The notes under the pieces: model-generated | What the model saw: only the letters and a program-made list of their open reading frames with translations | Told to the model about the DNA's origin: nothing | Databases searched by the model: none | Translations under genes and position numbers: made by a program | Shown: positions 39,304-53,462 of the stretch, in pieces | Numbering within the stretch: the first letter of the stretch is position 1 | Layout of the letters: each line of letters begins with the position of its first letter | Origin: Nonomuraea rubra | GTDB lineage: Bacteria > Actinomycetota > Actinomycetes > Streptosporangiales > Streptosporangiaceae | NCBI RefSeq assembly: GCF_014207985.1 | Contig: NZ_JACHMI010000001.1 | Span: 12,507,001 to 12,571,000 of the forward strand | Reading direction: 5' to 3' | DNA length: 64,000 nt

Positions 39304-39327
39304 CCGGCGCGGCACCATGGTGGGCCC

Positions 39328-39442
39328 AACTGAGACCCAAAGCAGAAGGGGTCATGCCGCTGATCACGGCATGACCCCTCTGAGCTGGCGGAGGATAGGG
39401 GATTTGAACCCCTGATAGGTTGCCCTATACACGCTTTCCAAG
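39328..39442. repeat. Left att repeat of the integrated element (tRNA-Ser 3' fragment)
   Basis: 115 bases match 53091-53205 with only two differences (39344, 39345); the last 97 bases (39346-39442) are identical. It contains the tRNA-Ser(GGA) 3' half up to the anticodon loop, its terminator hairpin and flank. Past 39442 the sequence departs from the tRNA, so this copy is not a functional tRNA. Confidence 0.93.
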
Positions 39443-39473
39443 TCTGTGGACCTTCGTTCACGGCCGGTCATCA

Positions 39474-39557
39474 GGGTCTCTAGCTGGGCCCATGCTCACG
39501 CACCGACGTGGGTGAACGTCCCCGGACGCGGGCGAACTGAGACCCTAAATGAGACCC
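39474..39557. promoter_or_regulatory. Left-end TGAGACCC repeats (candidate integrase arm sites)
   Basis: TGAGACCC occurs at 39538-39545 and 39550-39557, same strand, 12 bases apart; an inverted GGGTCTC lies at 39474-39480. A further TGAGACCC (39331) sits in the left att repeat. The same pair with 12-base spacing occurs at the right end. Confidence 0.5.
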
Positions 39558-39571
39558 GCTGGAGGCGGAAG

Positions 39572-39614
39572 GGCTGTAACACTTGGGGGGCGCCGCCTCC
39601 TCAGTGTTACAGCC
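39572..39614. repeat. 12-bp perfect inverted repeat at the element's left end
   Basis: GGCTGTAACACT (39572-39583) and AGTGTTACAGCC (39603-39614) are perfect inverted copies around a G/C-rich 19-base loop that is itself partly self-complementary (ggaggcgg with ccgcctcc). No T-run follows on either strand. The 39443-39847 end otherwise holds only arm-like repeats and a decayed coding remnant. Confidence 0.6.
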
Positions 39615-39660
39615 GTTTGTCGCGCGGAACGCGCTCAGAATGACGTGCGAAGCACCGTTT

Positions 39661-39779
39661 GATCTTTGCTCTTCAGGGACAGCAGAGACACCTCCGGCTC
39701 TGGTTGTCCCTCCTAGGCCACTCACGTTTGTGCTGGTCAGAGCTGTCTCAGGGACGCCGGGGACAGCAGGGACACCTTC
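39661..39779 (-). pseudogene. Remnant matching the 3' end of the element's own replication ATPase gene
   Basis: On the minus strand 39779-39726 reads EGVPAVPGVPETALTSTN, against EGVPAVPGVPEPALTSTN at the end of the RecA-like replication gene (51484 onward). 17 of 18 residues match while about eight codons differ at the third base. No start or upstream domain is present; a 134-residue open frame surrounds it (39480-39884) but overlaps the next gene. Best read as a leftover of a related element's rep gene. Confidence 0.5.
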
Positions 39780-39847
39780 TCTGTCCACGTTGTTGACCCC
39801 CAGCCAGGGGGCGCATGGGCTTGCGGTGGGGCCCTGGCCGGGGGCGT

Positions 39848-40174
39848 TCAAGGGGCGGGATCGAGTGTCGAGGCGGCCCGCCATAGCGCGTTGACGAACT
39901 CCCGCCGGGTGTCGTCTGGCAATACACCGAGGATTGCGGCCAGCTCGGCGGCAAGTGCCGGGTCAATGTCGCGGACGTGGATACGGACACCATCCTCGAA
40001 GCGGGCGATGCGCACCACCGGAGGGTTCGGCGGCATGTGTCCGGCGAAGACTTCAATCGTGGCCTGGCCGACATGCCAGATGCCGAGTTGGGCTGCGTGC
40101 CCCGGCTGGTCATTCCGGCGGTGGGTGGACTGGCACCAGGCCACAGCACACCCAACCAGACCATCTACTGTCAC
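39848..40174 (-). CDS. Hypothetical AICE protein
   Basis: A 108-residue protein without a recognised domain. RIARFEDGVRIHVRDIDPALAAELAAIL looks like a small folded core after a less ordered N terminus. The start overlaps the stop of the upstream gene (ATGA), supporting a real, coupled gene. Function unknown. Confidence 0.5.
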   Translation of the reverse strand: MTVDGLVGCAVAWCQSTHRRNDQPGHAAQLGIWHVGQATIEVFAGHMPPNPPVVRIARFEDGVRIHVRDIDPALAAELAAILGVLPDDTRREFVNALWRAASTLDPAP

Positions 40175-40827
40175 GGCTGCGCCTCCTGCTGTTCGGCCAG
40201 TACCAGCGGCTCGTCACGGAGATCATGGAGCATCAGCCACGGCTGCTTGCCGAGCGCGTACCGAAGCCATTCGCTGCCCTTGTCGAGCAGCACATTGACC
40301 TCGTGGCACACCTTCACCGCTGGTACGGGGAGCGAGTCACCGGGTCCGGGCTCGTACAGGTCCACGGTGGCCGCGTACGGGCTGGTTCCTGCCACGCTTG
40401 CGACGCGGGAGCGTTCGGCCAGACGCGGGCAGGTGGCCAGCGACTCGGGGATGCAGGCTCCGCATGTGGGTGGCAGGTTGGTGATGGAGGTGCCGTCCGG
40501 TGCGATGTCGGGATCGTTGACGAACAGCCACCAGTAGCGGCCGTCAGGGCGCTGGCATGAGCGGCTGCACACCATGCACAGGTGCTCCCGCATCATGACG
40601 CGGGTGCGTGGCGTGTTGATCGCCTTCCAACGGAACTTGCCCGCCCGGTCCAGCCCGTGTCGCACCCACAGCAGCCCGTGATCCCAGTCATCGTCTGTCG
40701 GGTCGGAGTAGGACAGGCGGATGTCCTCGACGATCGGGTCCCAATCGAAGAACAGCGGCAAGTCGAGCAGTTCGCCCGTCCACAGGTTCTGGTCGGGGAT
40801 ACGCAATCCGTTCCGAGTGCGATTCAC
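40171..40827 (-). CDS. Hypothetical AICE protein with cysteine pairs
   Basis: A 218-residue hydrophilic protein. CMVCSRSC and CGACIPESLATC give two possible zinc-binding pairs around residues 84-91 and 121-132. Trp and Asp are frequent. The GTG start overlaps a short upstream frame (GTGA). Function unknown; its position beside the XRE regulator in an element suggests a regulatory or host-interaction role, by inference only. Confidence 0.6.
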   Translation of the reverse strand: MNRTRNGLRIPDQNLWTGELLDLPLFFDWDPIVEDIRLSYSDPTDDDWDHGLLWVRHGLDRAGKFRWKAINTPRTRVMMREHLCMVCSRSCQRPDGRYWWLFVNDPDIAPDGTSITNLPPTCGACIPESLATCPRLAERSRVASVAGTSPYAATVDLYEPGPGDSLPVPAVKVCHEVNVLLDKGSEWLRYALGKQPWLMLHDLRDEPLVLAEQQEAQP

Positions 40828-41072
40828 ACCAGGTCCCGGCTCGGATCGTTCAGTGCGGCGGCACGACCCGAGGTTGCGGCAGGGTCGTGGTCGTGCCGCC
40901 GCAGCCGCGCTGTCCCGGAGCGCGGCAACGACGCGATGGTGGACGTCTGGGAAGAGACGTCACCACCGCGCCAGTCCATGTGGTTCTTGTCGTTCCAGGC
41001 CGACAAGGCGGAGGAGTTGTCCTGCACGGGTTCCATCACAGTCGGGCGTGGTACGACTGCGGGAGAGGACAC
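40824..41072 (-). CDS. Possible small AICE gene
   Basis: An 82-residue frame starting ATG at 41072 and ending with a stop that overlaps the next start (GTGA). Ser/Arg/Asp-rich with no known domain, and the frame contains the perfect inverted repeat at 40854-40903. The overlap favours coding; the repeat and low-complexity product argue against it. Confidence 0.3.
   Translation of the reverse strand: MSSPAVVPRPTVMEPVQDNSSALSAWNDKNHMDWRGGDVSSQTSTIASLPRSGTARLRRHDHDPAATSGRAAALNDPSRDLV
40854..40903. repeat. 14-bp perfect inverted repeat between divergent AICE genes
   Basis: TGCGGCGGCACGAC (40854-40867) and GTCGTGCCGCCGCA (40890-40903), 22-base spacer. A second, 6-bp palindrome (CAGTCG/CGACTG, 41039-41059) lies nearer the XRE start. 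Together they fill the roughly 300-bp gap before the XRE regulator and may be its operator or an RNA structure. Confidence 0.55.
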
Positions 41073-41127
41073 TGGAGGCGCACCCGGATACGCGCCCGTG
41101 TCCGCCTACCCCCGGAGGTGCATTCCG

Positions 41128-42363
41128 ATGAGCAAGGCTCGCGCCTGGGCCAGGCGACTACGCACCGAGCGGTCCAGGCGAGGCTGGTCTCAGCGTGACC
41201 TCGCCCTGCAACTGTCCGCCGTCGCTGACAGGAAGCTCCCTGAGCCAGAGAGCATCGTGCGCCGGATCCGGGACCACGAATGCGGCAAGCACCGACCGGA
41301 CGACGAGTACGCGGAGCTGTACTGCCGCCTGTACGGGTTGAGTGAGTCCGCGCTCTTCGACGAGGAAGAAGGAGCGGCCGACCTGGGCGACGAGATCGAC
41401 GCGATCGAGCTTGCCCGCCGGGCGGCGGCCAGTGACGTCAGCAGGGAGACGCTGGAACGGCTTGAGCTTGCCGTAGACGACCTGGCATCCGATTACCCTC
41501 GCACACCCCCGGCACAGCTCCTTGGCCGCGTACGGCGGCATCTGGAGTACGTGACGCGGCTCTTCGACGGCAGGAAGACTCTCGCTGAGCACCGCCGCCT
41601 CCTCGTGGCAGGCGGCTGGCTGTCGCTCCTTGCGGCCACCTGCCACATCGACCTGCGGCAGTACCCGGCCGCTGCCGCGCGCCTACGGACGGCCGGGCAG
41701 TTGGCCGGCCACGCCGGGCACGATGAGATCAGGGCATGGTGCCTGGAGACCGAGGCGTGGCAAGCCCTCACTGAGGGCGACTACCAGCACGCCATGATCC
41801 TGGCTCAAGGAGCGCAGAACGTCGCACCACGCACCAGCTCCGCATTCATTCAGGCCACTGGGCAGGAGGGCCGGGCTTGGGCACGGATGGGGAAGAGCAC
41901 CGAAACCCGGGCCGCACTGCATCGGATACACCGGATGGTGTCGCCGATGCCCATGCCGGACCGGCCCGAACATCACTTCCGGTATGACCCGGCCAAGAGC
42001 GATGCCTACACCGCGACCACGCTTTCGTGGCTGGGTGACCCGGCCGCCGTGAACTACGCGCGTCAGGTACTCGCACGACTGGAATCCGCCGTAGACGGGG
42101 GACCACGCCCGCGTCGAGCAGCGTCGGCACGTCTCGATCTGGCTCTTGCCCTGCTCGCCATCGACGAGCCAGGAGAGGCCGGATACATCGCGCGCCAGGC
42201 CCTCATGAGTGGACTCTTGGTGCCCTCGAACTACTGGCGCGCCAAAGAGGTCATCGCCGGAGTCGAAGAGCACGGTCTGACGGAAGCCGTCGAGCTTCGT
42301 GAGGTCTACCGCGAGCTGTACGGGTCACCGTCGGACCCGCAGCGTCCCCAGATCAACTCTTGA
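41128..42363 (+). CDS. XRE-family regulator with TPR-like domain, element-borne
   Basis: A 411-residue protein. A helix-turn-helix (WARRLRTERSRRGWSQRDLA) with an insertion typical of Streptomyces plasmid proteins precedes about 330 residues of helical repeats (RTAGQLAGHAGHDEIRAWCL). ATG at 41128 follows GGAGGTG. It may control element functions or host responses. Divergent from the two hypothetical genes. Confidence 0.75.
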   Translation: MSKARAWARRLRTERSRRGWSQRDLALQLSAVADRKLPEPESIVRRIRDHECGKHRPDDEYAELYCRLYGLSESALFDEEEGAADLGDEIDAIELARRAAASDVSRETLERLELAVDDLASDYPRTPPAQLLGRVRRHLEYVTRLFDGRKTLAEHRRLLVAGGWLSLLAATCHIDLRQYPAAAARLRTAGQLAGHAGHDEIRAWCLETEAWQALTEGDYQHAMILAQGAQNVAPRTSSAFIQATGQEGRAWARMGKSTETRAALHRIHRMVSPMPMPDRPEHHFRYDPAKSDAYTATTLSWLGDPAAVNYARQVLARLESAVDGGPRPRRAASARLDLALALLAIDEPGEAGYIARQALMSGLLVPSNYWRAKEVIAGVEEHGLTEAVELREVYRELYGSPSDPQRPQINS

Positions 42364-42433
42364 GGGGTCTGGCTTACCTGAGCGTCCTCATTCCCTGCGA
42401 CAGTAGGGGTTTCATCGCTCGCAGTACACACAT

Positions 42434-42898
42434 CTACTCGTTCACGCTAGAGAGTGACACCAGGACGTAGGTCGCCCACTTCTTCGGATCAGCTTGCAGT
42501 GCCTTGGCGGCCGTTGGCTCCAGTTGCGCACCGAACGATTCCAGGTCCTCCACAGGGCCAAGCCTCGTGGTCGTCCCCTTCCAGCGGCTCGACTCCATCT
42601 GGACCACCACGTCACCAGAGCTGACCTCGTTCCACCCGAGCCGCTTCAGTTGATCGCGCGCGAGGTCGAGTGCTTCGGGGAAGTCGGCGGCCCGCATATC
42701 GACCACCAGGATCTCAACGACTTGTACAGTCCGCTCGTATATCGGGTCCGTGAAGGTCTGCGTAACGACGTGGCCCGCGCTTCGCACTTCCGCGAGCGCG
42801 CCAGGATCAACCTTGATCACCGTCTCGGGCATCCATGCCGCATCGCAACCTGAAACGGCGACTAACAGGCACAGTGCGGCCAATAAGCGCTTAACCAT
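42434..42898 (-). CDS. Predicted lipoprotein (AICE cargo)
   Basis: A 154-residue protein with a short signal peptide (KRLLAALCLLVAVSGC) ending in a lipobox, Cys 18. The mature part has no recognised domain. Last gene of a GntR-HAD-lipoprotein set on the minus strand, 90 bases after the HAD gene. A surface role in entry exclusion is possible but untested. Confidence 0.6.
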   Translation of the reverse strand: MVKRLLAALCLLVAVSGCDAAWMPETVIKVDPGALAEVRSAGHVVTQTFTDPIYERTVQVVEILVVDMRAADFPEALDLARDQLKRLGWNEVSSGDVVVQMESSRWKGTTTRLGPVEDLESFGAQLEPTAAKALQADPKKWATYVLVSLSSVNE

Positions 42899-42988
42899 GG
42901 AAGTATCCTTATCTGCTTCTTCGTGTCACGGGCGCAGTCTCAAAGATGACTCAGCGCGTATCCGCAGCGTGTCGGTCCGCACACGGCG

Positions 42989-43684
42989 TCAGGCATGGGC
43001 GAGTGCGTCCGCGAGTTCTTCCATGCTTGTCACGATGAGATCGGCCCCTGTCTCGTCAAGCCGTCTGGCTTTTCCTGGCTTGTTGGCGTAGCCGACAGCG
43101 ATCACCCCAGCAAGCTTGGACGCCTCAACGTCTGTTGCCGAATCTCCGACCAGCAGGGCGGACGAGGGTTCCGCACCGATGTGAGTAAGCGCCTGAACGA
43201 GCAGGTGAGGATTCGGCTTCATGAGTGAGGGGTCCGCTTCCGCACGCGCGGCGATGTGCTCCACCAGACTGCTGAGCCCTTGCCGATCCAGGAAGGCCGC
43301 CACTGCGGCCACGGAGTTGTTGCTCACTATGGCGACAGGCACTTCTTTGTCGCGTGCCCGTTCCAGCAGGTCAGTCGCACCAGGGGTAGATCTCGCCGTC
43401 CCGGCCGCCTTCACTTCCAGCTCGGTGAGTGTCCGAAGTGCAAGCCGGTTCAGATCGCCGCTCAGAGAGGCGCTGAGCCGGAACACCTCTAGAGGGTCGT
43501 TCGTGGTGTGCGCCTCCGGCGGGAGCTGCGCGCCTGCCTCTTCCAGGACGGCGCGGAGACTGTCCGCCACAGTTGGTGCCGGCAGTCCAGCGAAGATGTC
43601 GCAGATCGGCCCGTCGAAGTCGAGCAGAAGGCACCGTGTCTCGCTCATGACGGCTCGGACGGCTTCCGCTCCCGACCGCGCCAT
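42989..43684 (-). CDS. HAD-family hydrolase (AICE cargo)
   Basis: A 231-residue phosphatase-like protein: motif I LLLDFDGPICD (nucleophile Asp), motif II VAIVSNNS, motif III Lys in MKPNP and motif IV LLVGDSATDVEA. Substrate unknown. ATG at 43684 overlaps the GntR stop by one base (TGATG); an internal ATG at 43648 is an alternative. Confidence 0.8.
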   Translation of the reverse strand: MARSGAEAVRAVMSETRCLLLDFDGPICDIFAGLPAPTVADSLRAVLEEAGAQLPPEAHTTNDPLEVFRLSASLSGDLNRLALRTLTELEVKAAGTARSTPGATDLLERARDKEVPVAIVSNNSVAAVAAFLDRQGLSSLVEHIAARAEADPSLMKPNPHLLVQALTHIGAEPSSALLVGDSATDVEASKLAGVIAVGYANKPGKARRLDETGADLIVTSMEELADALAHA

Positions 43685-44523
43685 CAGGACACCTCGCGAG
43701 CGACGGAGTTCCACACCGCGTCGAACCACGCGGACGACTGCTGCACGTACTGACACGACGTCGAATCGGGACCGTCGCTCAGTGCGAAGTGGAACAGCTC
43801 GGTGTCCTTGCCCATCAGGTCGAACATCGTGACCGGCTCGCCGCCCAGCGCCACGGTGTGCTCCGCCACGGCGTAGTAGCCGAAGAATGCCTCTTCGCCG
43901 TTGATCACGTACATCTTGAAGCGTGGCGGCTCGCCGCTGATCCGGACCTCGGCGGATGCGTGCGTCACCAGGCCGAGATCCCTCAGCTCATGCACCGAGT
44001 CCACGATGGCCTGAGCGTGCCGGGAGATGATCTTTTCAGCACGCTGCCTGAACAGCGGCTCATCCTGCCCGTTGTCCACCCGGCAGGGGAGAGACCAGGG
44101 GCGGTTGGTGTCTGGCAGCAGGAGCCGGATGGAGATGCGCTCCGGAGTCAGCCGACCCGCCCGGATGTTGTCGAGCGCCTCCATGACCGCGCCGTGCAAC
44201 GTCTCACCGGAGAACCCGGCGAAGTCGATGGAGACCTCTGACCGCTTGAACGCTTCCTCGATGTGAGGGCGTAGGCCGACAGGGCGAGCGGTCTTCTCGC
44301 GGACGAACACGCCGCTTCCTTGACGGGAAACGATCAGGCCGTCGTCTCGAAGGATGCGGATGGCCTGCTGGATGGTCTGGCGCGCCACGCCGAAGGTCTT
44401 GGCGAGTTCCGGCCCCGAGGGGAGCTTCTCCCCGGGCGCGAACTTCCGGGTGAGTATGGCCGCTCTGAGCTGCGCTGCGACCTGCTGGAAGGGCGGACGC
44501 GGGTCGTCCGGATCGAGTCTCAT
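43684..44523 (-). CDS. GntR-family regulator (KorSA-like)
   Basis: A 279-residue repressor. The N-terminal winged helix (FAPGEKLPSGPELAKTFGVA and ARQTIQQAIRIL) is clear; the C-terminal part is not a clear UTRA or FCD domain. In AICEs the GntR-type KorSA represses transfer and replication genes. Upstream lies a cluster of CTAGCCA-type sites facing the transfer operon, which it probably binds. Confidence 0.8.
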   Translation of the reverse strand: MRLDPDDPRPPFQQVAAQLRAAILTRKFAPGEKLPSGPELAKTFGVARQTIQQAIRILRDDGLIVSRQGSGVFVREKTARPVGLRPHIEEAFKRSEVSIDFAGFSGETLHGAVMEALDNIRAGRLTPERISIRLLLPDTNRPWSLPCRVDNGQDEPLFRQRAEKIISRHAQAIVDSVHELRDLGLVTHASAEVRISGEPPRFKMYVINGEEAFFGYYAVAEHTVALGGEPVTMFDLMGKDTELFHFALSDGPDSTSCQYVQQSSAWFDAVWNSVAREVS

Positions 44524-44887
44524 GCCCCGATCGTAGCCCTACCTGAACAACATTACTAGCCAAGTTGGCCAAGACTCTTGACATGACTAGCCAGGCCACT
44601 CAACATGGTGCTTGTACAACCTGCCTAGCCAACCTGGTCAGGCGGGAAGTGCAACGGATGACTTGGCGGCCTAGCTGGCCAAATCGTCCGCCGCTCAGTC
44701 GGAAGACCTGGAAAGGCGCCAACTTCGGCGCGCGCCGACGGGCTGAGCACTCGCGCTTTGAGAACTGAATCCGGGCTACCGCCTCCCACCGAAAAGGCGG
44801 CACCACCGATCACGTTCGACGCCGGGACGGCCCCATCCGCCAAAGACACGAGCCGCCCCGGCCCTCCTCAAGAGAGGTGTTCTCATC
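44524..44887. promoter_or_regulatory. Control region of the transfer operon with CTAGCCA operator cluster
   Basis: Four related sites: CTAGCCAAGTTGGCCA (44556), CTAGCCAGGCCA (44587), CTAGCCAACCTGGTCA (44625) and CTAGCTGGCCAA (44671). TTGACA (44578-44583) overlaps the second, fitting a -35 box for rightward transcription. Each site is a short TAGCCA/TGGCCA palindrome of the sort bound by GntR dimers. The last 200 bases before the WhiB gene show no other clear element. Confidence 0.6.
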
Positions 44888-45196
44888 ATGCTCCACGACG
44901 TGCAGTGGTCCGGGGACGCGGGCGCGAACGCGCCCACCCTGACCGACCTGCTCGACGCCGTCCTGGCCGCCGGTCCCGCCTGCGGCCCTGACACCGCTCA
45001 CCTGTTCACCAGCACCGACGGAGAGACCTCCGACCGGCGGCAGGAGCGCGAACAGCGAGCCAAAGCCATCTGCCATCGCTGCCCCGCTCTCGGGGCGTGC
45101 CTGATGTACGCACTCGCGCTCGACCCGGGCGAGGGTGTCTGGGCGGGTCTCAGCCTCGACGACCACGACCTCACCGACGACCTGGCGGTGGCGTGA
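44888..45196 (+). CDS. WhiB-like iron-sulfur protein
   Basis: A 102-residue WhiB-family regulator. The four cluster cysteines are at ACGPDTAHLF (first) and ICHRCPALGACL (C-x2-C-x5-C), followed by the GVWAGLS turn. These proteins sense redox or NO with a [4Fe-4S] cluster and contact sigma factor. First gene of the rightward transfer operon; it may tune element activity. Stop overlaps the next start (TGATG). Confidence 0.85.
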   Translation: MLHDVQWSGDAGANAPTLTDLLDAVLAAGPACGPDTAHLFTSTDGETSDRRQEREQRAKAICHRCPALGACLMYALALDPGEGVWAGLSLDDHDLTDDLAVA

Positions 45197-45366
45197 TGAC
45201 TCGCTTCCGCTGCCTCGACTGCGGCCAGCGCTCCGACAGCATCATCGGCTGCCGCCGCTGCGGCACGGTCACCGGCCGCCGCGCCCAGCTCTGCCCCGCC
45301 CACGGCGCGGGCCGTGCGCCGGGATGCCGGGCCTGCCGAGTCAACTTCCGATCCGAGGAGCGCTGA
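45196..45366 (+). CDS. Small zinc-ribbon protein
   Basis: A 56-residue protein with C-x2-C pairs (CLDC, CRRC) and two further cysteine motifs (LCPAH, CRAC), probably two zinc sites. Starts on the last base of the WhiB stop and overlaps the next start in the same TGATG way. Function unknown; small Zn proteins are usual in AICE operons. Confidence 0.6.
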   Translation: MTRFRCLDCGQRSDSIIGCRRCGTVTGRRAQLCPAHGAGRAPGCRACRVNFRSEER

Positions 45367-45767
45367 TGTCCCGAGTCCGCGCGGCCTTTTGGGATCCGTC
45401 CGGTAGCCGCTACAGCCTTCCCACCTACCCATGGCGGATGGCCCCGCCGCATCTGCTGACCCTGCGCCAGCTCGCCGCCGAAGGGCTGCGACCCGGCGGT
45501 CAGGGAGTCCAAGCGCAGATCCTCTGGCGCTCCCGCCGGCACGGCGCACGCGGCGTGCGTGCCGCCTACCTCTACGACATCCGGTTCGCGCTGCCCAAGC
45601 GCCCCATGACCCCGGCCAAGTGGGCGGCACTGGCCAAGGCCAACGCCGCCCGCCGTCGCTGCCCGAGCTGCGGGCTCGACGCCGGGTTCGTCATCTCTCG
45701 CTACGCCGACACCTGCACCACCTGCTACTACCAGCCCGCCAGCGCGCGGACGGAGGAAGCCGCATGA
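45366..45767 (+). CDS. RRQRL-motif zinc-binding protein
   Basis: A 133-residue protein. YSLPTYPWRMAPPHLLTLRQL is the conserved N-terminal block and LKRPMTPAKWAALAKANAAR-like text leads to CPSCG and CTTC, the zinc site. This family is common in actinomycete plasmids and AICEs; function unknown. Coupled to both neighbours by overlaps. Confidence 0.65.
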   Translation: MSRVRAAFWDPSGSRYSLPTYPWRMAPPHLLTLRQLAAEGLRPGGQGVQAQILWRSRRHGARGVRAAYLYDIRFALPKRPMTPAKWAALAKANAARRRCPSCGLDAGFVISRYADTCTTCYYQPASARTEEAA

Positions 45768-46699
45768 GCCACATCGCCCACCCTGACCCGCCTCCCGAGC
45801 CGACCCCGGAGGAGATGGCCAGCGCCCTGGCCGACCTCGAACAACTCGCCAACCAGAACTCCACCGTCGCCGTACCGTCCCGGCCGGTGGCAAGCGGTGA
45901 GACCAAGCGCGTGCGCAAGCTGCGTGCTGAGGTGGCCGAAGCGCACCTGCTGGCCGACCTCCAGGACGACGACGCCCCGCTGCTGCTGGACACGGCCAAG
46001 GTGCGCAAGCGCCGCAAGGCCGCCCAGGAAGCCGCCCGGCTGCATGCGCTGGCACAGGACCCCGAGATGCGGGCCTGGCAGTGCGCACGGATGCGGCAGC
46101 TGCTGGTCACCGCCGCGCTCGTCTCGCTCACGCTGGCGCTGGCCTGGTCCACCGCCGGTGTGCAGCACTTCGCCGCCGACGGTGCGCCTGCCTGGTCTCC
46201 AGCCTGGATCTTCGCCTGGCTGGTCGAGCCGTTCCTGTCCCTGGCCTTGCTGGTCGTGGTCGGCGCCCGCGCCTACCTCGGCACGCGAGGCCAACCGCTC
46301 GACGACCCCAAGCTCGTACGGATCGAGTGGCTGTTCCTGGCCCTCACGCTCGCCATGAACGCCTGGCCGTACCTGCCGTTCGTGGCCGCCGACTTCTCAC
46401 TGTCCCGGCTGGTCCTGCATGTCCTGGGACCGATCGTGGCGGTCGCCATCGTCACCGCCCTGCCGATCATCCTGGCCGCGTTCGCTGGCCTCGATCACGG
46501 GCCTACCGGTACCCCTACCACCCCTTCGTACAGGGCAAATGCGGCGACTGTCGACAAACTGACCGATCGCGCCCGCGACCTCATCGGGGCCGGTCAGCTC
46601 TCCGTCGACGCCGGAGCGGACAAGTTCCGCCGCGCCCTGGGGTGCGGCATGGACGCCGCCCGTGCCGTCCGAGATGCCCTGCGCAGCAACCCTGCCTGA
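45764..46699 (+). CDS. Spd-like/DUF2637-type membrane protein
   Basis: A 311-residue protein: an acidic N terminus, a basic stretch (KVRKRRKAAQEAARL), then four hydrophobic helices (about 110-245) and a cytoplasmic tail with a small helical domain (DLIGAGQLSVDAGADKF). It resembles plasmid spread (Spd) proteins that act with TraB to move DNA along septa in the recipient. The ATG overlaps the preceding stop. Confidence 0.65.
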   Translation: MSHIAHPDPPPEPTPEEMASALADLEQLANQNSTVAVPSRPVASGETKRVRKLRAEVAEAHLLADLQDDDAPLLLDTAKVRKRRKAAQEAARLHALAQDPEMRAWQCARMRQLLVTAALVSLTLALAWSTAGVQHFAADGAPAWSPAWIFAWLVEPFLSLALLVVVGARAYLGTRGQPLDDPKLVRIEWLFLALTLAMNAWPYLPFVAADFSLSRLVLHVLGPIVAVAIVTALPIILAAFAGLDHGPTGTPTTPSYRANAATVDKLTDRARDLIGAGQLSVDAGADKFRRALGCGMDAARAVRDALRSNPA

Positions 46700-46711
46700 G
46701 AGGAGGAATCC

Positions 46712-46930
46712 ATGCTGACCGTCGCCGTCATAGCCACGGCCATCTGTACGGCCATCCCGGTGGCCATCTTCATCCGCATGGTGGTGACCGGCCCGCGCGT
46801 TCGGGCTGAGATCCACACAGCCTTCCAGACCCGTCCGACCAGCACACAGGGCGCGACCTCATCCGCCAAGACTCCGGTCGCGCCCCGCAACCCCGCCCGC
46901 AGGTACGCACACGAGGTGGTCTCATCATGA
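46712..46930 (+). CDS. Small membrane protein upstream of traB
   Basis: A 72-residue protein with one N-terminal helix (LTVAVIATAICTAIPVAIFI) and a basic Ser/Thr/Pro tail. A strong GAGGAGG site precedes it. Its stop overlaps the traB start (ATGA). Probably a small Spd-type partner. Confidence 0.6.
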   Translation: MLTVAVIATAICTAIPVAIFIRMVVTGPRVRAEIHTAFQTRPTSTQGATSSAKTPVAPRNPARRYAHEVVSS

Positions 46931-49167
46931 CCCAGAACCCGCACGAACCGGAAAACCAGTCCGGCGACGGACCGCTGACCGGTCTGAACGGCTTCCAGTT
47001 CGCCGACCGGTCCGCGACCGCGACGGTCGAGACCGCCGAGATCGGCGGTCAGGTGGTGCCGCTGGACAGCCGCCGCCGAGTGCGCCCGCCGGACGAGCAC
47101 ACCGAGGAAGACGAGTCCTTCGACCACGAGACGGTCGCCATCGAGGCAGAGACGTTGGGCGGCCCAGTGGACCCGCCCGAAGACGACGCCGCGCCGTACA
47201 CCACGCGGACGATCCATCGCCGGGAACCCATCATCCCCGCCACGCTGCACACCTGGCGCGGCATCCGCACGATGCTCGTCTGGCAGGCCAAGGACGCCGG
47301 GTACGTCATCAGCTACCACACCGTCCGTACACCGAAGTACGCGGCGAAGGCGCTCAGGTACGCCGTCCCCGGCCTGTTCGGCACTCTCGGCCGCCTGTTG
47401 CACTGGGCCACGGCCGAAGAGGGCAACTGGGCACTGCGCCAGTACGCCGCCGACCGCAACGACCCGGAGACCTGGCTCAAGCTGGACAAGCAGCGTCAGC
47501 GGCAGTCGCGGTGGCGCTGGTGGATCCTGATCGCTCTCGCCGTGACGGTGCTGATCGGTCTGCTGGTCTTCCTGCTGGCTGACATCCCGACGTGGGCGCG
47601 TCTGCTGGCCGTGGCCGTAGCGGTGCCTGTACTGGCTCGCGCGGGCAGGCCCACGGACAAGCCGATCACCGACCGTGTCTCGACCGGTCCGCGCTACCGC
47701 AAGCTCACCGCCGAGCTGGTCCGCCGCGCGCTACTGTCTTGTGGCATCTCCGGCATCAACCAGGCCGTGAGCAAGGACCCGAACGCCATCAGCTTCCCGA
47801 CCGAGATCCACCGCGACGGACCCGGCCACCTCGCGGTCGTGGACCTGCCGTTCGGCGTGGAAGCCGCCGACGTCGTGGCCCGGCGCGGCCGGTTGGCCTC
47901 CGGCATGCGTCTGCCGCTGGATCAGGTCTGGCCCGAGCCCGGTGACGGCCACCCCGGACGGCTGGCGTTGTGGGTCGGCTACGAACCCGCCTCGCAGATG
48001 AAGCAGCCCGCCTGGCCGCTGCTCAAGGACGGCAAGGTGGACGTCTTCAAGCCGTTCCCGTTCGCCACCACGCCCCGCATGGACACGGTGAACGCTTCGC
48101 TGATGTTCCGCAACTGGCTGGTCGGCGGCCAGCCTGGCTCAGGCAAGACCTTCGCCCTGCGCCTGGCGGTCCTGGCCGCCTGCCTCGACCCGCGTGCTGA
48201 GCTGCGCATCTACGAGCTGAAGGGCGTGGGGGACTTCAAGGTCCTGGAGCCGTTGTGCACCGAGTACGGCAACGGTTTCGACGACGAGACGATCGCCCGC
48301 TGCGCTGGGATGATCCGCTGGCTGTACAAGGAGTGCGAGCGCCGCTCCAAGCGCATCGCGCACTACGCCCAGCTCGGTAAGGCCCCGGAGAACAAGGTCA
48401 CTCCTGAGCTGGCCAGCCTCAAGGACTCTGGCCTGCACCCGCTGATCGTCGCCATCGACGAGATCCAGGAGTTGTTCCTGCACGGCAAGTTCGGCAAGGA
48501 AGCCGGGGAGATCCTGGAGAAGGTCATCAAGCTGGGCCGCGCCCTGGGCGTGATCCTGCTGATCGGCACCCAGATCCCGGACAAGGACAGCCTGCCGACC
48601 GGCATCACCCGCAACGTCAACACCCGCTACTGCATGTCGGTGGCTGACCAGGTCGCCAACGACATGATCCTCGGCACCTCGATGTACAAGAACGGCTACC
48701 GCGCGACCATCTTCGAGCCAGTGGTCGAAGCCGGGTGGGGCATCCTGTCGGGCCTGGGCAAGCCCGCCGCCCGCCGCTCGTTCGAGGTGGACACCGACAA
48801 GGCCAAGCAGGTCGTGGCCCGCGCCATGCAGCTCCGTGGGTTGGCCGGCACCTTGCCCGAGGAAGGCACCCAGACCCGCGAGGACGCGCCCACGTACGAC
48901 CTGCTGGCCGACCTGGCGAAGGTCTGGCCTGCGGGGGAGAGTGGCGCCTGGAACGAGACTCTGTGCGGCTACCTGAGCGAACTGCGGCCCGAGGTCTACA
49001 CCGGATGGGCATCCGAGCAGCTCACGACCGCGCTCAAGCCGCACGGTGTGACGATCGTCAGCATCGGCCGCCGCATCGACGGCAAGCCCGTCACCCGACG
49101 TGGCATCCGCTTCGACGACCTGGCCGACGCCATCGCGGAGCGTAACCGTCGAAACGGCTCTGGCTGA
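46927..49167 (+). CDS. traB: FtsK/SpoIIIE-like DNA translocase TraB
   Basis: A 746-residue hexameric motor that pumps double-stranded plasmid or AICE DNA between hyphae. An acidic N terminus and two close helices (about 195-230) anchor it. The motor has Walker A GQPGSGKTF (about 401-408) and Walker B LIVAIDEIQEL (about 505-517). The C terminus (about 680-746) is a winged helix (FDDLADAIAERNRR end), the part that reads clt repeats. Followed at once by a GCTAGC repeat cluster. Confidence 0.9.
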   Translation: MTQNPHEPENQSGDGPLTGLNGFQFADRSATATVETAEIGGQVVPLDSRRRVRPPDEHTEEDESFDHETVAIEAETLGGPVDPPEDDAAPYTTRTIHRREPIIPATLHTWRGIRTMLVWQAKDAGYVISYHTVRTPKYAAKALRYAVPGLFGTLGRLLHWATAEEGNWALRQYAADRNDPETWLKLDKQRQRQSRWRWWILIALAVTVLIGLLVFLLADIPTWARLLAVAVAVPVLARAGRPTDKPITDRVSTGPRYRKLTAELVRRALLSCGISGINQAVSKDPNAISFPTEIHRDGPGHLAVVDLPFGVEAADVVARRGRLASGMRLPLDQVWPEPGDGHPGRLALWVGYEPASQMKQPAWPLLKDGKVDVFKPFPFATTPRMDTVNASLMFRNWLVGGQPGSGKTFALRLAVLAACLDPRAELRIYELKGVGDFKVLEPLCTEYGNGFDDETIARCAGMIRWLYKECERRSKRIAHYAQLGKAPENKVTPELASLKDSGLHPLIVAIDEIQELFLHGKFGKEAGEILEKVIKLGRALGVILLIGTQIPDKDSLPTGITRNVNTRYCMSVADQVANDMILGTSMYKNGYRATIFEPVVEAGWGILSGLGKPAARRSFEVDTDKAKQVVARAMQLRGLAGTLPEEGTQTREDAPTYDLLADLAKVWPAGESGAWNETLCGYLSELRPEVYTGWASEQLTTALKPHGVTIVSIGRRIDGKPVTRRGIRFDDLADAIAERNRRNGSG

Positions 49168-49309
49168 CCGTCCGGAGGGTGCTAGCGCTAGCGGCTGACC
49201 CTGCTATCGCTAGCACCCCCGCTAGCAGCCAAAAACACTGCCTGGCCAGGGCGTTAGAGCGCTAGCGCCCTGAGCTGACGACACCCAAAAACAGGCCCCG
49301 GAGGCTGTC
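49168..49309. promoter_or_regulatory. GCTAGC repeat cluster after traB (candidate clt transfer locus)
   Basis: GCTAGC occurs at 49181, 49187, 49209, 49221 and 49261, with near copies GCTATC (49203) and GTTAGA (49254), and GGCTGACC at 49162 and 49193. Known clt loci lie beside or inside the 3' end of traB and hold short repeats bound by TraB. No open frame is supported here. Confidence 0.6.
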
Positions 49310-49561
49310 TTGGACCCCGTCACCCTGCTCACTATCACGACCATCACGATCGCTCTGATCGTCGCTTTCCGTTACGGCATCGCCTGCTGGATCCGCCCGT
49401 TCGGCACCTGCCGAAAGTGCCAGGGCAAGCGCCACCTGCCCAACCGCATCGGTCGCGGCACCCGTGAGTGCCGCCGCTGCAAGGGCACCGGCCTGCGGCT
49501 CCGCTGGGGACGCCACCTCTTCAACTTCGTCCGCCGCCTCCACAGCGACGGCACCCGATGA
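49310..49561 (+). CDS. Small membrane protein with DnaJ-like zinc pair
   Basis: An 83-residue protein: one helix (LLTITTITIALIVAFRYGI), then CRKCQGKRH and CRRCKGTGL, a pair of CxxCxGxG-like motifs as in DnaJ zinc domains. The TTG start is supported by GGAGG at 49299-49303. Stop overlaps the next possible start (ATGA at 49558). Found commonly in AICE replication operons; function unknown. Confidence 0.6.
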   Translation: MDPVTLLTITTITIALIVAFRYGIACWIRPFGTCRKCQGKRHLPNRIGRGTRECRRCKGTGLRLRWGRHLFNFVRRLHSDGTR

Positions 49562-49584
49562 CCGGCCACGACCAGGAGACCGTC

Positions 49585-50469
49585 ATGACCGTTGACCCGA
49601 TCCGCTACGCCCTGGCCGCCGCCGCTCGTGGCTGGTACGTCTTCCCGCTCGCTCCGGGCGGCAAGGAACCGCCCCGCGGATTCACCCGCTGGGAGGAGCG
49701 CGCCACCACCCAGCCAGACCTCATTCGCGCCACCTGGCGCAAGCCGTACAACGTGGGCGTGGCCTGCGGCCCGTCCGGACTCGTGGTCATCGACCTCGAC
49801 CGACCGAAGCCCGGCCACACTCCACCGCCGGAATTGGAGCGTTCCGGGATCCGTGACGGTGCCGACCTGTTCGCGGCCCTGTGCGCCGACCACGGCCAGG
49901 AACTGCCCCTGGAGACCTTCCAGGTACGCACCCGGCGCGGTGGCCTGCATCTGTACTACAGCGCCCCCGTCGGCATGACCCTGACGAATACCCAAGGCGC
50001 GCTGGGCTGGCTCATCGACACACGCGCCGTGGGCGGCTACGTCGTCGGCCCCGGCAGCCGCGTCCGAGCCAGCGACGGTGACGGCTCATACGAGGTGCTG
50101 CACGCTCCGCCCGTCGCGCCGCTGCCGTCCTGGCTGGCGGAGCTGCTGCGGCCCAAGCCGCTGCCCGCACAGGCACCTGTCTCGATCGCCCTGGCCGCCG
50201 ACCGGCACGGGTCTTACCTGCGAGCAGCGATCAGAGGCGAGCTGGAACGAGTGACCAGCTCGCCGCCGCACGGCCACAACATCGCGCTCTATCGCGCGTC
50301 CGTCGCCCTCGGGCAGCTGGTTGCCGGTGGGGAGCTGTCCGAAGCCGACGTCACAAGCTGGCTGGTCAACGCGGCCCAGCAAGTTGGCCAGCCCTTCGGA
50401 GAGGCCGCACGGACCATCGCCAGCGGACTACGGGCAGGCGCGCGCCGCCCGCGAACGGTGGCCGCATGA
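49585..50469 (+). CDS. Bifunctional DNA primase/polymerase (prim-pol)
   Basis: A 294-residue AEP-type prim-pol. VVIDLDRP (about 65-72) carries the metal-binding Asp-x-Asp, and TRRGGLHLYY the downstream His. It makes RNA or DNA primers at the element's origin. ATG at 49585 has AGGAG 7 bases upstream; an ATG at 49558 overlaps the upstream stop and is the alternative. Its stop overlaps the RecA-like gene. With it, this is a RepPP-type initiator pair. Confidence 0.82.
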   Translation: MTVDPIRYALAAAARGWYVFPLAPGGKEPPRGFTRWEERATTQPDLIRATWRKPYNVGVACGPSGLVVIDLDRPKPGHTPPPELERSGIRDGADLFAALCADHGQELPLETFQVRTRRGGLHLYYSAPVGMTLTNTQGALGWLIDTRAVGGYVVGPGSRVRASDGDGSYEVLHAPPVAPLPSWLAELLRPKPLPAQAPVSIALAADRHGSYLRAAIRGELERVTSSPPHGHNIALYRASVALGQLVAGGELSEADVTSWLVNAAQQVGQPFGEAARTIASGLRAGARRPRTVAA

Positions 50470-51614
50470 CGAACGAGCGCCCATCCCATCTACGCCTGGT
50501 CGCGGGTGATGCGGTCCACGTGCCTGGCGACCACGGACCCGCGCCGACGCCGTTCCGCACGTCCTGGACCGCTGACGAGCTGATGTCCGTGACCTTTCCG
50601 CCGACCAAGTGGGCTGTGCCCGGCGTGATCGCCGAAGGGCTCAACCTGCTGGCCGGTCCGCCCAAGGTCGGCAAGTCCTGGCTGTCACTCGCCACGGCGG
50701 TGGCTGTCGCCGGGGGAGGGAAGGCCCTGGAGGCCATCGAGGTAGAGCCCGGCCCGGTGCTGTACCTGGCGCTGGAGGACACACCGCGCCGCCTGCAATC
50801 ACGCATGAGCAAGATCCTGGGAGACAAGCCAGCCCCACGAGGGCTGACCCTCTCCACGGCGTGCGAGACCCTTCCCAGGGGCGGAGATCAGGCCATCGCC
50901 CGATGGCTGGAACGCAACCCCGGCGCCCGCATGGTCGTCATCGACGTGTTCGCCAAGATCCGGGGCACCACGCCGCCCGGCCTGTCCGCCTATGACGCCG
51001 ACTACACGGCCATGGGCAGGGCCAAGAACCTGGCGGACACCTACGGCGTCGCCGTCGTCCTGGTCCACCACGTCCGCAAGATGGGCTCTGACGACTTCCT
51101 GGAGCAGGTCTCCGGCACCAACGGCCTGGCCGGTGCCGCCGACGCCACGTTGGTGCTCAAGCGCCAGCGTGGCACTGCCGATGGCGTCCTGCACGTCACG
51201 GGCCGCGACGTCGAAGAGGCCGAGTACGCCATGGCCTTTCAGCCCGCCGCCGGAGTGTGGCACCTGCTGGACGGCCCGCCCGAGGATCACACGCTGGGAG
51301 AAACCCGCGCGACCATCGTCCGCTACGTCCGCGCCAACCCGAACAGCACACCCAAGGCCATCGCCGACGGCACCAGCCTGTCCTACGAGAACGTCCGCAA
51401 GACCTGCCCGCGCATGGCCAGCGACGGACAGCTCTGCGTGGACGCCAACAGCCGCTACCGGGTGCCAGGGATATCAGCCCACGAAGGTGTCCCGGCCGTC
51501 CCTGGTGTCCCTGAACCTGCTCTGACCAGTACGAACGCGGCGAGCCATGAAGGACAGACATCCCTGCCCGCTGTCCCTGCTGTCCCTGCGCACGAGGAGG
51601 ACGCGCGCCAATGA
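50466..51614 (+). CDS. RecA-like replicative ATPase (AAA_25/RepA-type helicase)
   Basis: A 382-residue hexameric ATPase. P-loop AGPPKVGKSW (about 62-71), Walker B in MVVIDVFAKIR and the H-x-H..K of VHHVRKMG identify the RepA/AAA_25 group. A winged-helix-like C-terminal region (TPKAIADGTSLSYENVRKTC) leads to a Pro/Val-rich tail (VPAVPGVP, VPAVPAVP). Works with the prim-pol in replication. The tail has a relic copy near the left end. Confidence 0.8.
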   Translation: MTNERPSHLRLVAGDAVHVPGDHGPAPTPFRTSWTADELMSVTFPPTKWAVPGVIAEGLNLLAGPPKVGKSWLSLATAVAVAGGGKALEAIEVEPGPVLYLALEDTPRRLQSRMSKILGDKPAPRGLTLSTACETLPRGGDQAIARWLERNPGARMVVIDVFAKIRGTTPPGLSAYDADYTAMGRAKNLADTYGVAVVLVHHVRKMGSDDFLEQVSGTNGLAGAADATLVLKRQRGTADGVLHVTGRDVEEAEYAMAFQPAAGVWHLLDGPPEDHTLGETRATIVRYVRANPNSTPKAIADGTSLSYENVRKTCPRMASDGQLCVDANSRYRVPGISAHEGVPAVPGVPEPALTSTNAASHEGQTSLPAVPAVPAHEEDARQ

Positions 51615-51850
51615 CCGTCACGGCTCCGGACAGCGTCCGGCTCGACACGATCGACATCGCTACCCAGGAGGACCTGCCCTTGCTGCTCACCGTCGAAGAG
51701 GCCGCGCAACGGCTCAGGATCGGGCGGACGCAGATGTACCAGCTCGTCAAGACCGGCGAAGTGGCGTCCGTCTGCATCGGCAGACTCCGCCGCGTCCCCA
51801 TCGAGTGCCTGGCCGCCTACGTGAACAACCTTCTCGAAGGGAGTCGTTGA
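51611..51850 (+). CDS. xis: Excisionase (helix-turn-helix, Xis)
   Basis: A 79-residue protein with a MerR/HTH_17-like domain: LLTVEEAAQRLRIGRTQMYQL and the RLRRVPIECL wing. In AICEs Xis directs integrase to excise. The start overlaps the replication ATPase stop (ATGA), and integrase follows one base after its stop. Confidence 0.85.
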   Translation: MTVTAPDSVRLDTIDIATQEDLPLLLTVEEAAQRLRIGRTQMYQLVKTGEVASVCIGRLRRVPIECLAAYVNNLLEGSR

Positions 51851-51851
51851 C

Positions 51852-53084
51852 ATGGGACGCAGGCCCAACGGCGCATCGACCATCTACTTCGGCGGCGACG
51901 GCAAGTGGCACGGCAGGGTGACAGTAGGCGTCAAGGACGATGGCACGCCCGACCGCCGCCACGTGAAGCGCAAGACGGAAGCCGAGGTCATCAAAGCCGT
52001 CCGTGAGCTGGAACGCCAGCGAGACGGCGGGCAGGTCCGAAAGGCCGGCCAGCGCTGGACGGTCGCGAAGTGGCTGACCCACTGGATCGAGAACATCGCC
52101 GTCCCACCTGCCATCCGAGAGAGCACCCACTCCGGCTACAAGGTGGACGTGGTGACCCACCTGATCCCCGGCATCGGTGCTCACCGCCTCGACAAGCTGG
52201 AGCCCGAGCACCTGGAGAAGCTCTACGCCAAGATCCAGCGTTCCGGACGATCCGCTGGAACGGCTCACCACGTTCACCGGACCGTTCGGGCCGCGCTCAA
52301 CGAGGCCGTACGGCGCGGCCACATCACGAAGAACCCGGTGACCCTGGCCAAGGCCCCAGTGCTCACGGACGCCGAGATCGAGCCCTACGACATCGAGGAG
52401 ATCCGCCTCCTGCTCAAGGCTGCTGACGAACTGCCACGGAACAGCGCGCGGTGGGGGATCGCGCTCGCACTCGGACTGCGCCAAGGCGAAGCCCTTGGCT
52501 TGCGTTGGACGCACGTGGATCTCGACAAGGGCGTTCTGCGAGTACGGCGCAGCCGTCAGCGTCCCAAGTATGCCCACGGGTGTGCCGACCGCCCGTGTGG
52601 CAGGAAGCCTGGCTTCTGCCCGCAACGCAAGCAGGTCAACGAGGCGACGTCGGACACCAAGTCGAAGGCCGGGCGGCGGGTGATCGGTCTGCCGGACGAG
52701 TTGGTGACCCTGCTCAGGAAGCACAAGGCGGAGCAGGACAAGGACCGCCAGGCGGCTCGTCAGCTCTGGCAGGAGGGCGGCTGGGTCTTCACCACGGCGA
52801 CAGGCCAGCCCGTGAGTCCGTACAGCGACTATCACGAGTGGAAGGCACTACTGAAAGCCGCTGGTCTACGGGACGGTCGGCTGCACGACGCGCGCCATAC
52901 CGCCGCGACGGTGTTGCTCATCCTCGGAGTGCCCGAACGTACGGTCATGGCCATCATGGGGTGGTCCGGCTCGGGCATGGCGGCGCGGTATCAGCACGTG
53001 ACGGACGGCATCCGGCAGACCGTGGCCAGGCAAGTCGGGGGTCTCATCTGGGAGCCGGAAAGGAGCTCCGAAGAGGCCAACTGA
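51852..53084 (+). CDS. int: Tyrosine recombinase/integrase
   Basis: A 410-residue site-specific recombinase. An arm-binding N-terminal part, a core-binding SAM-like domain (GYKVDVVTHLIPGIGAHRLD), then the catalytic domain with Arg210 (GLRQGEALGLRW), His345-x-x-Arg348 (HDARHTAA) and Tyr380 (AARYQHV). A Cys-rich insert (GCADRPCGRKPGFCPQRK) lies before the second half, as in AICE integrases. Ends 65 bases before the tRNA-Ser(GGA) target. Confidence 0.93.
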   Translation: MGRRPNGASTIYFGGDGKWHGRVTVGVKDDGTPDRRHVKRKTEAEVIKAVRELERQRDGGQVRKAGQRWTVAKWLTHWIENIAVPPAIRESTHSGYKVDVVTHLIPGIGAHRLDKLEPEHLEKLYAKIQRSGRSAGTAHHVHRTVRAALNEAVRRGHITKNPVTLAKAPVLTDAEIEPYDIEEIRLLLKAADELPRNSARWGIALALGLRQGEALGLRWTHVDLDKGVLRVRRSRQRPKYAHGCADRPCGRKPGFCPQRKQVNEATSDTKSKAGRRVIGLPDELVTLLRKHKAEQDKDRQAARQLWQEGGWVFTTATGQPVSPYSDYHEWKALLKAAGLRDGRLHDARHTAATVLLILGVPERTVMAIMGWSGSGMAARYQHVTDGIRQTVARQVGGLIWEPERSSEEAN

Positions 53085-53101
53085 GACCCAAACTGAGACC
53101 C
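53039..53101. promoter_or_regulatory. Right-end TGAGACCC repeats (candidate integrase arm sites)
   Basis: TGAGACCC at 53082-53089 and 53094-53101, same strand, 12 bases apart, and an inverted GGGTCTCA at 53039-53046 inside the integrase gene. The pair mirrors the left end (39538/39550). Confidence 0.5.
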
Positions 53102-53205
53102 AAAGCGAAAGGGGTCATGCCGCTGATCACGGCATGACCCCTCTGAGCTGGCGGAGGATAGGGGATTTGAACCCCTGATAGGTTGCCCTATACACGCTTT
53201 CCAAG
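53091..53205. repeat. Right att repeat (overlaps tRNA-Ser)
   Basis: Matches 39328-39442 with two differences (53107, 53108). Its last 57 bases (53149-53205) are the 3' half of the intact tRNA; the hairpin AGGGGTCATGCCG/CGGCATGACCCCT (53110-53142) is the tRNA terminator on the minus strand. Confidence 0.93.
53110..53142 (-). terminator. tRNA-Ser(GGA) terminator hairpin, duplicated with att
   Basis: A 13-bp perfect stem with a 7-base loop; on the minus strand it is followed by TTTCGCTTT. The same hairpin is at 39347-39379 beside the SARP gene's 3' end, so integration leaves both the SARP and integrase genes with a terminator-like hairpin. Confidence 0.75.
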
Positions 53206-53236
53206 CGTGCGCCCTCGGCCACTAGGCGAATCCTCC
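53149..53236 (-). tRNA. tRNA-Ser (anticodon GGA)
   Basis: Acceptor GGAGGAT (53230-53236 side) pairs with ATCCTCC. The anticodon stem CACGC/GCGTG with loop TTGGAAA gives GGA (codon UCC). Long variable arm, T-arm GGGG-TTCAAAT-CCCC and encoded CCA (53149-53151). Its 3' half is the element's att copy, so it stays functional after integration. Confidence 0.95.
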
Positions 53237-53338
53237 GCCGACGAGCTTACCGGACTTCTCAGGGTGTGCAGACCATGTTTTCCGCGGGGTTCCGACAGGG
53301 TGGAGCGAGCACTGCGGCGTGCGGCTAGACTGTCCAGG

Positions 53339-53425: not shown

Positions 53426-53462
53426 TCTTCGTTGAGAGCCCCCTCGCAGGCGGGATGGTCGT

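Follow-up and report, generated by a model that had tools for sequence, protein, structure and literature searches.

This analysis concerns a 64,000-nucleotide stretch of the Nonomuraea rubra genome (contig NZ_JACHMI010000001.1, positions 12,507,001 to 12,571,000; hereafter the window) that carries a 13.76-kb insert in tRNA-Ser(GGA). Judged by its genes, the insert is an actinomycete integrative and conjugative element (AICE) with a tyrosine integrase (Int), an Xis-like excisionase, a primase-polymerase (Prim-Pol) and an FtsK-type translocase (TraB). Among the traits tested, those of an AICE (tyrosine integrase with attachment (att) repeats, FtsK/SpoIIIE translocase, own replication module) and that of the RepPP group (a Prim-Pol domain) are present in the element. 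A preliminary description of this DNA had placed int, xis, prim-pol, a RecA-like ATPase (hereafter the helicase), traB and regulators between the repeats, and gene calls and profile scans bear this out; for its Spd-like genes, the position and, by eye, the hydrophobic stretches agree, while a Pfam match is absent. The AICE type is already known. The less expected part is a mirrored iteron box, one copy of which is embedded in the helicase gene.

The mirrored boxes and the helicase tail

Self-comparison of the window revealed an inverted repeat of 107 bp, 74% identical, one copy of which lies near the left end of the element and the other in the end of the helicase gene (left and right iteron boxes in Table 1). 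Both consist of 9-bp iterons resembling GGGACAGCA that flank a core like GTTTNCGCTGGTCAGA, and the usual layout is two iterons, one opposed iteron, the GTTTNCGCTGGTCAGA-like core and three iterons. The motif GGGACNNCNGGGAC occurs five times in the element; the remaining 49.7 kb of the window has none, against an expectation of about 0.1. Direct repeats in register beside rep genes, the trait tested for an iteron origin, are present. In the integrated element 11.7 kb separates the boxes; after excision the distance between them, across attP, would fall to 1.85 kb.

For the helicase, AlphaFold gave a confident RecA-like core, a winged helix at about residues 279-335 (read from the predicted secondary structure) and, at residues 339-382, a stretch without structure (predicted local distance difference test score, pLDDT, below 50) that covers box residues 340-375. 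Winged-helix families match the corresponding region in the two homologues scanned, and in the protein itself a MarR-type PHROG matches there (E 5.3e-6). Its best PDB match by sequence is RSF1010 RepA (1g8y, E 5.6e-11), and a fold search places RepA first as well (1nlf, template modelling score 0.47/0.69, 19% identity), with 1olo and 1g8y also high. A RepA-type helicase, the trait tested for a system like that of incompatibility group Q (IncQ), is present. Five database entries (P0008, P0010, P0025, P0032 and P0040) call this family 'DNA repair protein RadA', which is probably a misannotation.

Codon usage was compared across 16 helicase genes; near copies or partial genes (L032, L151, L159; here and below, L numbers denote loci and G numbers genomes) and more divergent helicases were left out. 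All five valine columns of the tail are GTC throughout (15-16 sequences each), against one invariant valine column of 23 in the domain. One threonine, one glycine and one alanine column of the tail are also invariant; another tail alanine column is free (0.50), and the third bases of the neighbouring prolines vary (largest share 0.56-0.87). We read frozen third bases in a disordered tail as a sign of constraint on the DNA and not on the protein, in which case the box would explain the odd tail as an overprinted DNA signal.

Box pairs among relatives and their possible role

Altogether 32 helicase-bearing loci were examined, including L111, L115 and L118 from the set of TraB relatives. L148, probably the same element as L159 (it has the same helicase tail), and L178-L180, where the helicase matched partly, were left out; L160 and L161 lie outside the analysed set. 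An inverted pair was found in 19 of the 32, several of which are closely related, so that these are not 19 independent events. In ten (the window, G024, L150, L165, L168, L172, L174, L177, L118 and L115), whole-locus self-comparison pairs the end of the helicase gene with a distant inverted match that scores 45 bits or more. Matches of that strength also occur elsewhere in the locus in L164, L173 and the window (a second match of 46 bits, the palindrome of the tRNA terminator), and in three of 26 TraB relatives without the helicase (L112, L123, L131). L158, L169 and L170 reach 34-36 bits, above all control windows, and L164 reaches 41 bits, above 46 of 48 control windows; in L152, L153, L154, L155 and L159, strict motifs are present at both places and are oppositely oriented. 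The L174 box lies directly behind the helicase gene, not within it. Across elements, box types include the GGGACA-, CGGACA- and GAGTGACA-types. Among the 12 pairs printed, the iterons are GGGACA-like in seven, TCGGACAG in L164, L165 and L172, GGTGTGACA in L177 and GAGTGACAC in L115; the type thus varies between elements, and within each of the 12 pairs both boxes have the same one. One exact form of the box gave no match in IMG/VR viral contigs; the same form was found in only 10 of 184 fetched loci, and variants may escape such a search. L112 holds a different inverted pair of 64 bp (4776-4839 and 14579-14642, 86% identical) with a GACAACC/GGTTGTC palindrome, one copy lying near the end of an open reading frame (ORF) that is closely followed by another long ORF; it is possibly a second kind of mirrored site.

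The locus comparisons suggest that the boxes mostly follow the ATPase, not TraB or Int. The 26 TraB-relative loci without a helicase match (L120, L122 and L125 are cut inside traB) hold strict motifs in four cases, namely L103 and L122 with one each, L128 and L129; none occur in L100-L102 and L117, though their TraB is 76-77% identical to that of the window. Conversely, the pair is kept where the best TraB match is 28-41% identical (L150, L155, L164, L165, L168-L170, L177), and boxes are kept with integrases 23-28% identical (L152-L155, L158, L159, L165, L172), six of these eight loci sitting at Thr, Ile or Phe tRNAs and two having no tRNA in view. TraB and Int were accordingly rejected as owners of the boxes.

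In our model, the tyrosine integrase would insert the element into the 3′ half of the tRNA-Ser(GGA) gene, from which Int and Xis would excise it as a 13.76-kb circle; the helicase and Prim-Pol would copy the circle, and the FtsK-type TraB would move it as double-stranded DNA. The boxes would be cis-sites of the replication module, serving as origin, in copy control or both, to which the winged helix of the helicase itself, or a partner, would bind. Since excision would bring the boxes from 11.7 to 1.85 kb of one another across attP, replication may fire properly only in the circle. We consider it likely that the boxes are a replication cis-site, whether or not one of them is devoted to control, and fairly probable that the element is an AICE with a Prim-Pol/RecA-fold helicase module whose mirrored boxes are such cis-sites. 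A more elaborate version is a guess by analogy, and a doubtful one, whose parts are taken jointly: the boxes would be two mirror-image start sites, one per strand, in the manner of the IncQ sites ssiA and ssiB; with one site inside the helicase gene, origin DNA would dictate the protein tail; iteron type and recognition domain would co-diverge, so that every lineage would form an incompatibility group of its own; and excision would switch the origin on by bringing the two sites together across attP.

Several observations weigh against a replication role tied to this helicase. Two Asanoa loci, L128 and L129, each hold a pair of oppositely oriented boxes but nothing that matches this helicase (in L129 the Prim-Pol gene contains one of the boxes, and a DUF3631 gene, of RepAM type, separates the two); hence the box does not require this helicase, and the mirrored feature may belong to Prim-Pol replication modules more widely. 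Six of the 32 loci lack a pair despite more than 13 kb of upstream sequence (L149, L163, L167, L173, L175, L176), so that not all members need a second box. A left box was sought in further flanks of L149, L163, L167 and L173 and none was counted, a weak 30-bit match in L167 and one stray strict motif at position 579 in L163 being set aside. L156 and L171, with 8-11 kb upstream, also gave no pair (a 34-bit match 0.35 kb behind the L171 helicase gene was not counted); upstream sequence is under 6 kb in L151, L157, L162, L166 and L111. The agreement of iteron type within all 12 printed pairs is biased by the choice of pairs for their similarity. The core is not recognisable in L177, and the distance from the left box to attL varies, from about 0.23 kb here to 2.8 kb in L099.

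The closest rival keeps the boxes in replication and divides the labour: one box would be the origin and the other a copy-control or incompatibility locus. Handcuffing of this kind controls copy number in P1-type plasmids, and such a system would tolerate L149 and L167, where one box only is recognisable. However, in most pairs the complex layout is alike in both copies, down to the core, and a site serving titration alone would have no need of it; we regard this arrangement as possible rather than probable. TraB-type translocases read short direct repeats, so the boxes might instead be TraB recognition sites (clt/TRS repeats) with no part in replication. A clt site is mentioned in the account of pWTY27 (PMC3583192). 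The scarcity of motifs in helicase-less TraB loci, four of 26 and none beside the closest TraB proteins, and the survival of the pair beside distant ones make this improbable. The idea that the boxes are accessory sites for Int and Xis in excision draws on their place in the circle, where they would flank xis-int-attP, and on the short distance from one of them to attL; yet they persist with very different integrases at other tRNAs, and the better resemblance to arm sites is shown by the TGAGACC repeats near attP, which are separate from the boxes. We judge it quite improbable.

Two further explanations turn on the history of the site. As a dead relic, the left box would be the end of a second helicase gene left by an earlier accreted element. 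It is still 56% like the helicase tail over 41 aa when read in frame, and the site, as set out below, is an accretion hotspot, where 8 of 34 relatives have remnants of int, of an element or of the tRNA. But the inverted box turns up in the same place in elements of other genera and at other tRNAs, and it has the iteron variant that goes with the resident helicase, which relics would not track; the simple relic reading was rejected on the recurrent placement and matching iteron type, and we give the relic little credence. Finally, the whole island might be a resident chromosomal block or a decayed relic that does not move. In Nonomuraea thailandensis it sits at the same site and has diverged about as much as the flanks, as a resident block would; against this, 33 of 34 relatives are without the element there, and the mobility genes are open with low ratios of nonsynonymous to synonymous substitution (dN/dS), which leaves this explanation very improbable. 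The reading that we prefer to all of these remains that of mirrored replication cis-sites.

Integration site, age and gene content

A single long direct repeat was found within positions 36000-56000. It is 118 nt long and 97% identical (three mismatches, at repeat positions 3, 20 and 21), with a start-to-start distance of 13763; the preliminary description, which had a 115-bp stretch (39328-39442) with two mismatches bounding a 13.76-kb insert in tRNA-Ser(GGA), is confirmed by it. The left copy begins 22 bp past the last base (39303) of a gene for a SARP-type (Streptomyces antibiotic regulatory protein) regulator and contains the 57-bp 3′ part of the tRNA (39386-39442). Joining the outer flanks in silico restored a whole tRNA-Ser(GGA); with the coordinates, this upholds the earlier claim that one copy rebuilds the tRNA and that the other is a fragment beside the SARP gene. 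Further matches to the repeat in the 12.88-Mb genome (two contigs) are far weaker (E at least 4.7e-6, against 5.8e-56 and 9.5e-52). Beyond the tRNA lie a small signal recognition particle (SRP) RNA (53336-53431) and then dnaX.

In N. thailandensis DSM 46694 (G024) the two att copies align over 116 bp at 87% identity and have 64 contiguous bp in common, against 97 in the window. The outer copy there has another terminator and an int 3′ remnant, and the outer attL flanks are unlike those of the window. From this we infer that the element carries its own tRNA terminator and that the window's longer identity reflects an earlier related resident. Because the terminator is apparently carried in and the N. 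thailandensis outer flank has a different one, the 115-bp repeat is longer than the att core; its outer 50 bp or so looks like the scar of an earlier related element. The equation of all 115 bp with the core was rejected on the 64 bp common to the N. thailandensis copies.

The tRNA-Ser(GGA)/dnaX locus was surveyed in 34 same-genus genomes, mostly over 20 kb each (5.5 and 7.9 kb in G008 and G035; G019, an incomplete genome with no strong site match, was left out). Traces were scored at E 1e-4; GntR matches of 38-45% and SARP matches were not scored. The tRNA is matched across 86-88 of its 88 bases in all 34. The complete element stands at this site in one, N. thailandensis; seven more have traces beside the tRNA, and the other 26 have none. 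G010 has an int at 77%, a tRNA fragment and a traB end; G011, G014, G017 and G035 have int 3′ pieces of 27-211 residues, G014 with a tRNA fragment as well; G031 has a tRNA fragment and orfL1/orfL2 pieces; and G015 has the lipoprotein gene only. The possibility that relatives carry the same 13.8 kb as conserved core thus holds for one of them, and 33 of the 34 speak against it. The G010 locus (L033, reversed stretch, positions 14625-16051) has, between the tRNA fragment and the tRNA, an inverted helicase tail resembling a box, next to a truncated xis and a full int; by this arrangement we take the stretch to be a shortened derivative of the element. Behind tRNA-Ser(GGA), the genus has at least three types of terminator (judged by eye on plus-strand loci among L034-L063), consistent with integrating elements swapping the tRNA terminator. 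By all these remnants, we regard the site as a much-used accretion hotspot, one that would show how tRNA terminators can be exchanged by such elements and how the scars left behind make att repeats longer.

Relative to the N. thailandensis copy, dN/dS is 0.029 for int, 0.066 for xis, 0.061 for the helicase domain, 0.088 for Prim-Pol, 0.078 for traB and 0.170 for the spd-like gene (0.085 for dnaX), and looser for WhiB (0.291) and the lipoprotein (0.246); the six genes named first are under purifying selection. No internal stops occur in int, xis, helicase, Prim-Pol or traB in either copy. The earlier impression of intact modules agrees with the open frames and low ratios, and the disabling stops in int or traB that would have told against it were looked for in both copies without result. 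The synonymous divergence (dS) of the element is a mosaic of 0.012-0.327 (orfL2 0.012, orfL1 0.059, backbone about 0.15, GntR 0.24, lipoprotein 0.33), and that of the flanks is 0.099 for dnaX and 0.048-0.190 for 20 flank ORFs, which include overlapping open frames (one paralogue row, dS 0.6, was left out). With N. thailandensis holding it at the same site at a dS like or above that of the flanks, the element is not a recent arrival in these lineages; it has probably remained functional for most of the time since, via descent, exchange or both, and is probably functional in the window. The near identity of orfL2 and orfL1 between the two species, beside about 0.15 elsewhere, would fit recent exchange or strong constraint.

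At E 1e-30, TraB relatives are present in 39 of the 54 genus genomes (that of the window is one of these) and in named genomes make up 35 loci from Nonomuraea to Micromonospora, Salinispora and Frankia. The helicase is scarcer, with 15 of the 54 at the same threshold and, at E 1e-60, 24 of 297 family and 6 of 394 class genomes; these genome sets overlap and include the source genome of the window. The backbone is common and the integrases differ between relatives. Nine of the ten loci that show a tRNA and whose int is 60% or more identical are at tRNA-Ser(GGA) (L097, L109, L113, L119, L127, L169, L176, G010 and G017, the last with an int piece only). The tenth, L163 (G365), has an int 65% identical about 2 kb from tRNA-Ser(CGA) and a helicase without the box-coding tail; it has perhaps switched both target and origin. 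Backbone relatives with other integrases sit at Thr, Ile, Arg, Pro, Tyr and Phe tRNAs. Target choice, on this evidence, appears to follow the integrase.

The remaining features are collected in Table 1. TraB matches an FtsK/SpoIIIE-like PHROG (E 5.3e-26) and FtsK structures (E 3.1e-4), and scores 21.1 bits against PF01580 in Pfam, below the cut-off of 24. A single-sequence search of the PDB gave no match to Prim-Pol at E 0.1. General scans of the element proteins named no RepC family, no comparison with RepC or RepB′ having been made. The SARP-type gene (36379-39303) is bracketed in G014 (L079) by a tRNA-Ser fragment and an int remnant, and may be older-island cargo, not core. Elsewhere in the source genome (contig G000:C1) there are two more TraB relatives (44% and 35%), a further Prim-Pol gene, and a related integrase directly followed by an att fragment that resembles a tRNA (12659156-12661194, 11781375-11782757, 12019550-12020074 and 12289092-12290426), which are probably further integrated elements.

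Table 1. Features of the element and its boundaries, in window positions
Feature	Positions	Strand	Basis or remark
attL-side repeat copy (tRNA-Ser(GGA) 3′ fragment, terminator, TGAGACC repeat like those behind int)	39325-39442	+	outer part probably scar
Left iteron box, no gene called on it	39674-39779	+	inverted copy of helicase-end box
orfL2, 108 aa	39848-40174	-	no Pfam match; nearly identical in N. thailandensis
orfL1, 218 aa	40171-40827	-	no Pfam match
NsdA-family regulator, tetratricopeptide repeat (TPR)-like	41101-42363	+	NF053720, E 2.8e-32; start uncertain, frame open from 40582
Small predicted lipoprotein (judged by eye), fast evolving	42434-42898	-	
GntR-type regulator	43684-44523	-	PF00392
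WhiB-like protein	44888-45196	+	PF02467
Membrane protein in Spd position	45767-46699	+	no Pfam match
Small ORF ahead of traB, matched in some relatives	46712-46930	+	
TraB-like FtsK/SpoIIIE DNA translocase	46927-49167	+	PHROG, structure and Pfam searches
Prim-Pol	49558-50469	+	Prim-Pol domain PF09250, E 1.3e-42; frame open from 49468
RecA-fold helicase-like ATPase, C-terminal winged helix, RSF1010 RepA relative	50466-51614	+	AAA_25, E 1.9e-34
Right iteron box, in helicase gene 3′ end (residues 340-375, disordered VPAVPGVP...VPAVP tail)	51483-51588	-	self-comparison, motif
Xis-like excisionase	51611-51850	+	profile scans
Tyrosine integrase	51852-53084	+	PF00589, E 8.1e-21
tRNA-side repeat copy	53088-53205	+	direct repeat
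tRNA-Ser(GGA), complete, integration target	53149-53236	-	ARAGORN, Rfam

Comparison with known replication systems

The mirrored box is a short, concrete origin candidate with natural iteron-type variation across genera. It may be of use in detecting and classifying such elements, and in vector construction for antibiotic producers among the actinomycetes, Nonomuraea included. Literature searches found no published report of paired mirrored boxes. The consulted part of PMC3218068 lists the genes of Prim-Pol-type AICEs as replication modules, ties the RepPP group to an SCO4618-like gene adjoining Prim-Pol, says that two regions matter for SLP1 replication and describes no origin sequence or iteron pair for these elements. 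The element shares with SLP1 and the RepPP group a tyrosine integrase at a tRNA 3′ end, a single FtsK-type translocase, and Prim-Pol followed by a second replication gene (PMC3218068); here, in contrast, the second gene encodes an RSF1010-RepA-like helicase with a winged helix.

RepAM-type AICEs (PF12307) offer a parallel in Asanoa L129, which has Prim-Pol and DUF3631 genes along with an inverted pair of boxes whose iteron is similar, one box being inside the Prim-Pol gene; unlike the present element, it has no match to this helicase, and its boxes are 1.6 kb apart around the DUF3631 gene. In RSF1010, the two ssi sites are close together. A box pair split across the element does not appear in what we could consult of the RSF1010 (PMC4538821) and pWTY27 (PMC3583192) accounts.

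Nevertheless, both plasmids resemble the element in several respects, as far as the consulted parts describe them. RSF1010, of IncQ, has a RepA helicase of the same fold family, a primase of the archaeo-eukaryotic (AEP) type and, for it, the start sites ssiA and ssiB (PMC4538821). Its initiator is a distinct protein, RepC, whereas in the present element the primase belongs to PF09250 and the boxes themselves carry iterons. The Streptomyces plasmid pWTY27 has a predicted primase/polymerase, RepB, together with RepA, and an iteron with direct and inverted repeats, including a long inverted repeat (ca. 105 bp) that RepA binds (PMC3583192). In pWTY27 one iteron region adjoins repAB, whereas the present element has two mirrored boxes kilobases apart, one inside coding sequence. 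Given these likenesses to RSF1010 and pWTY27, a role in replication is the natural reading of the boxes.

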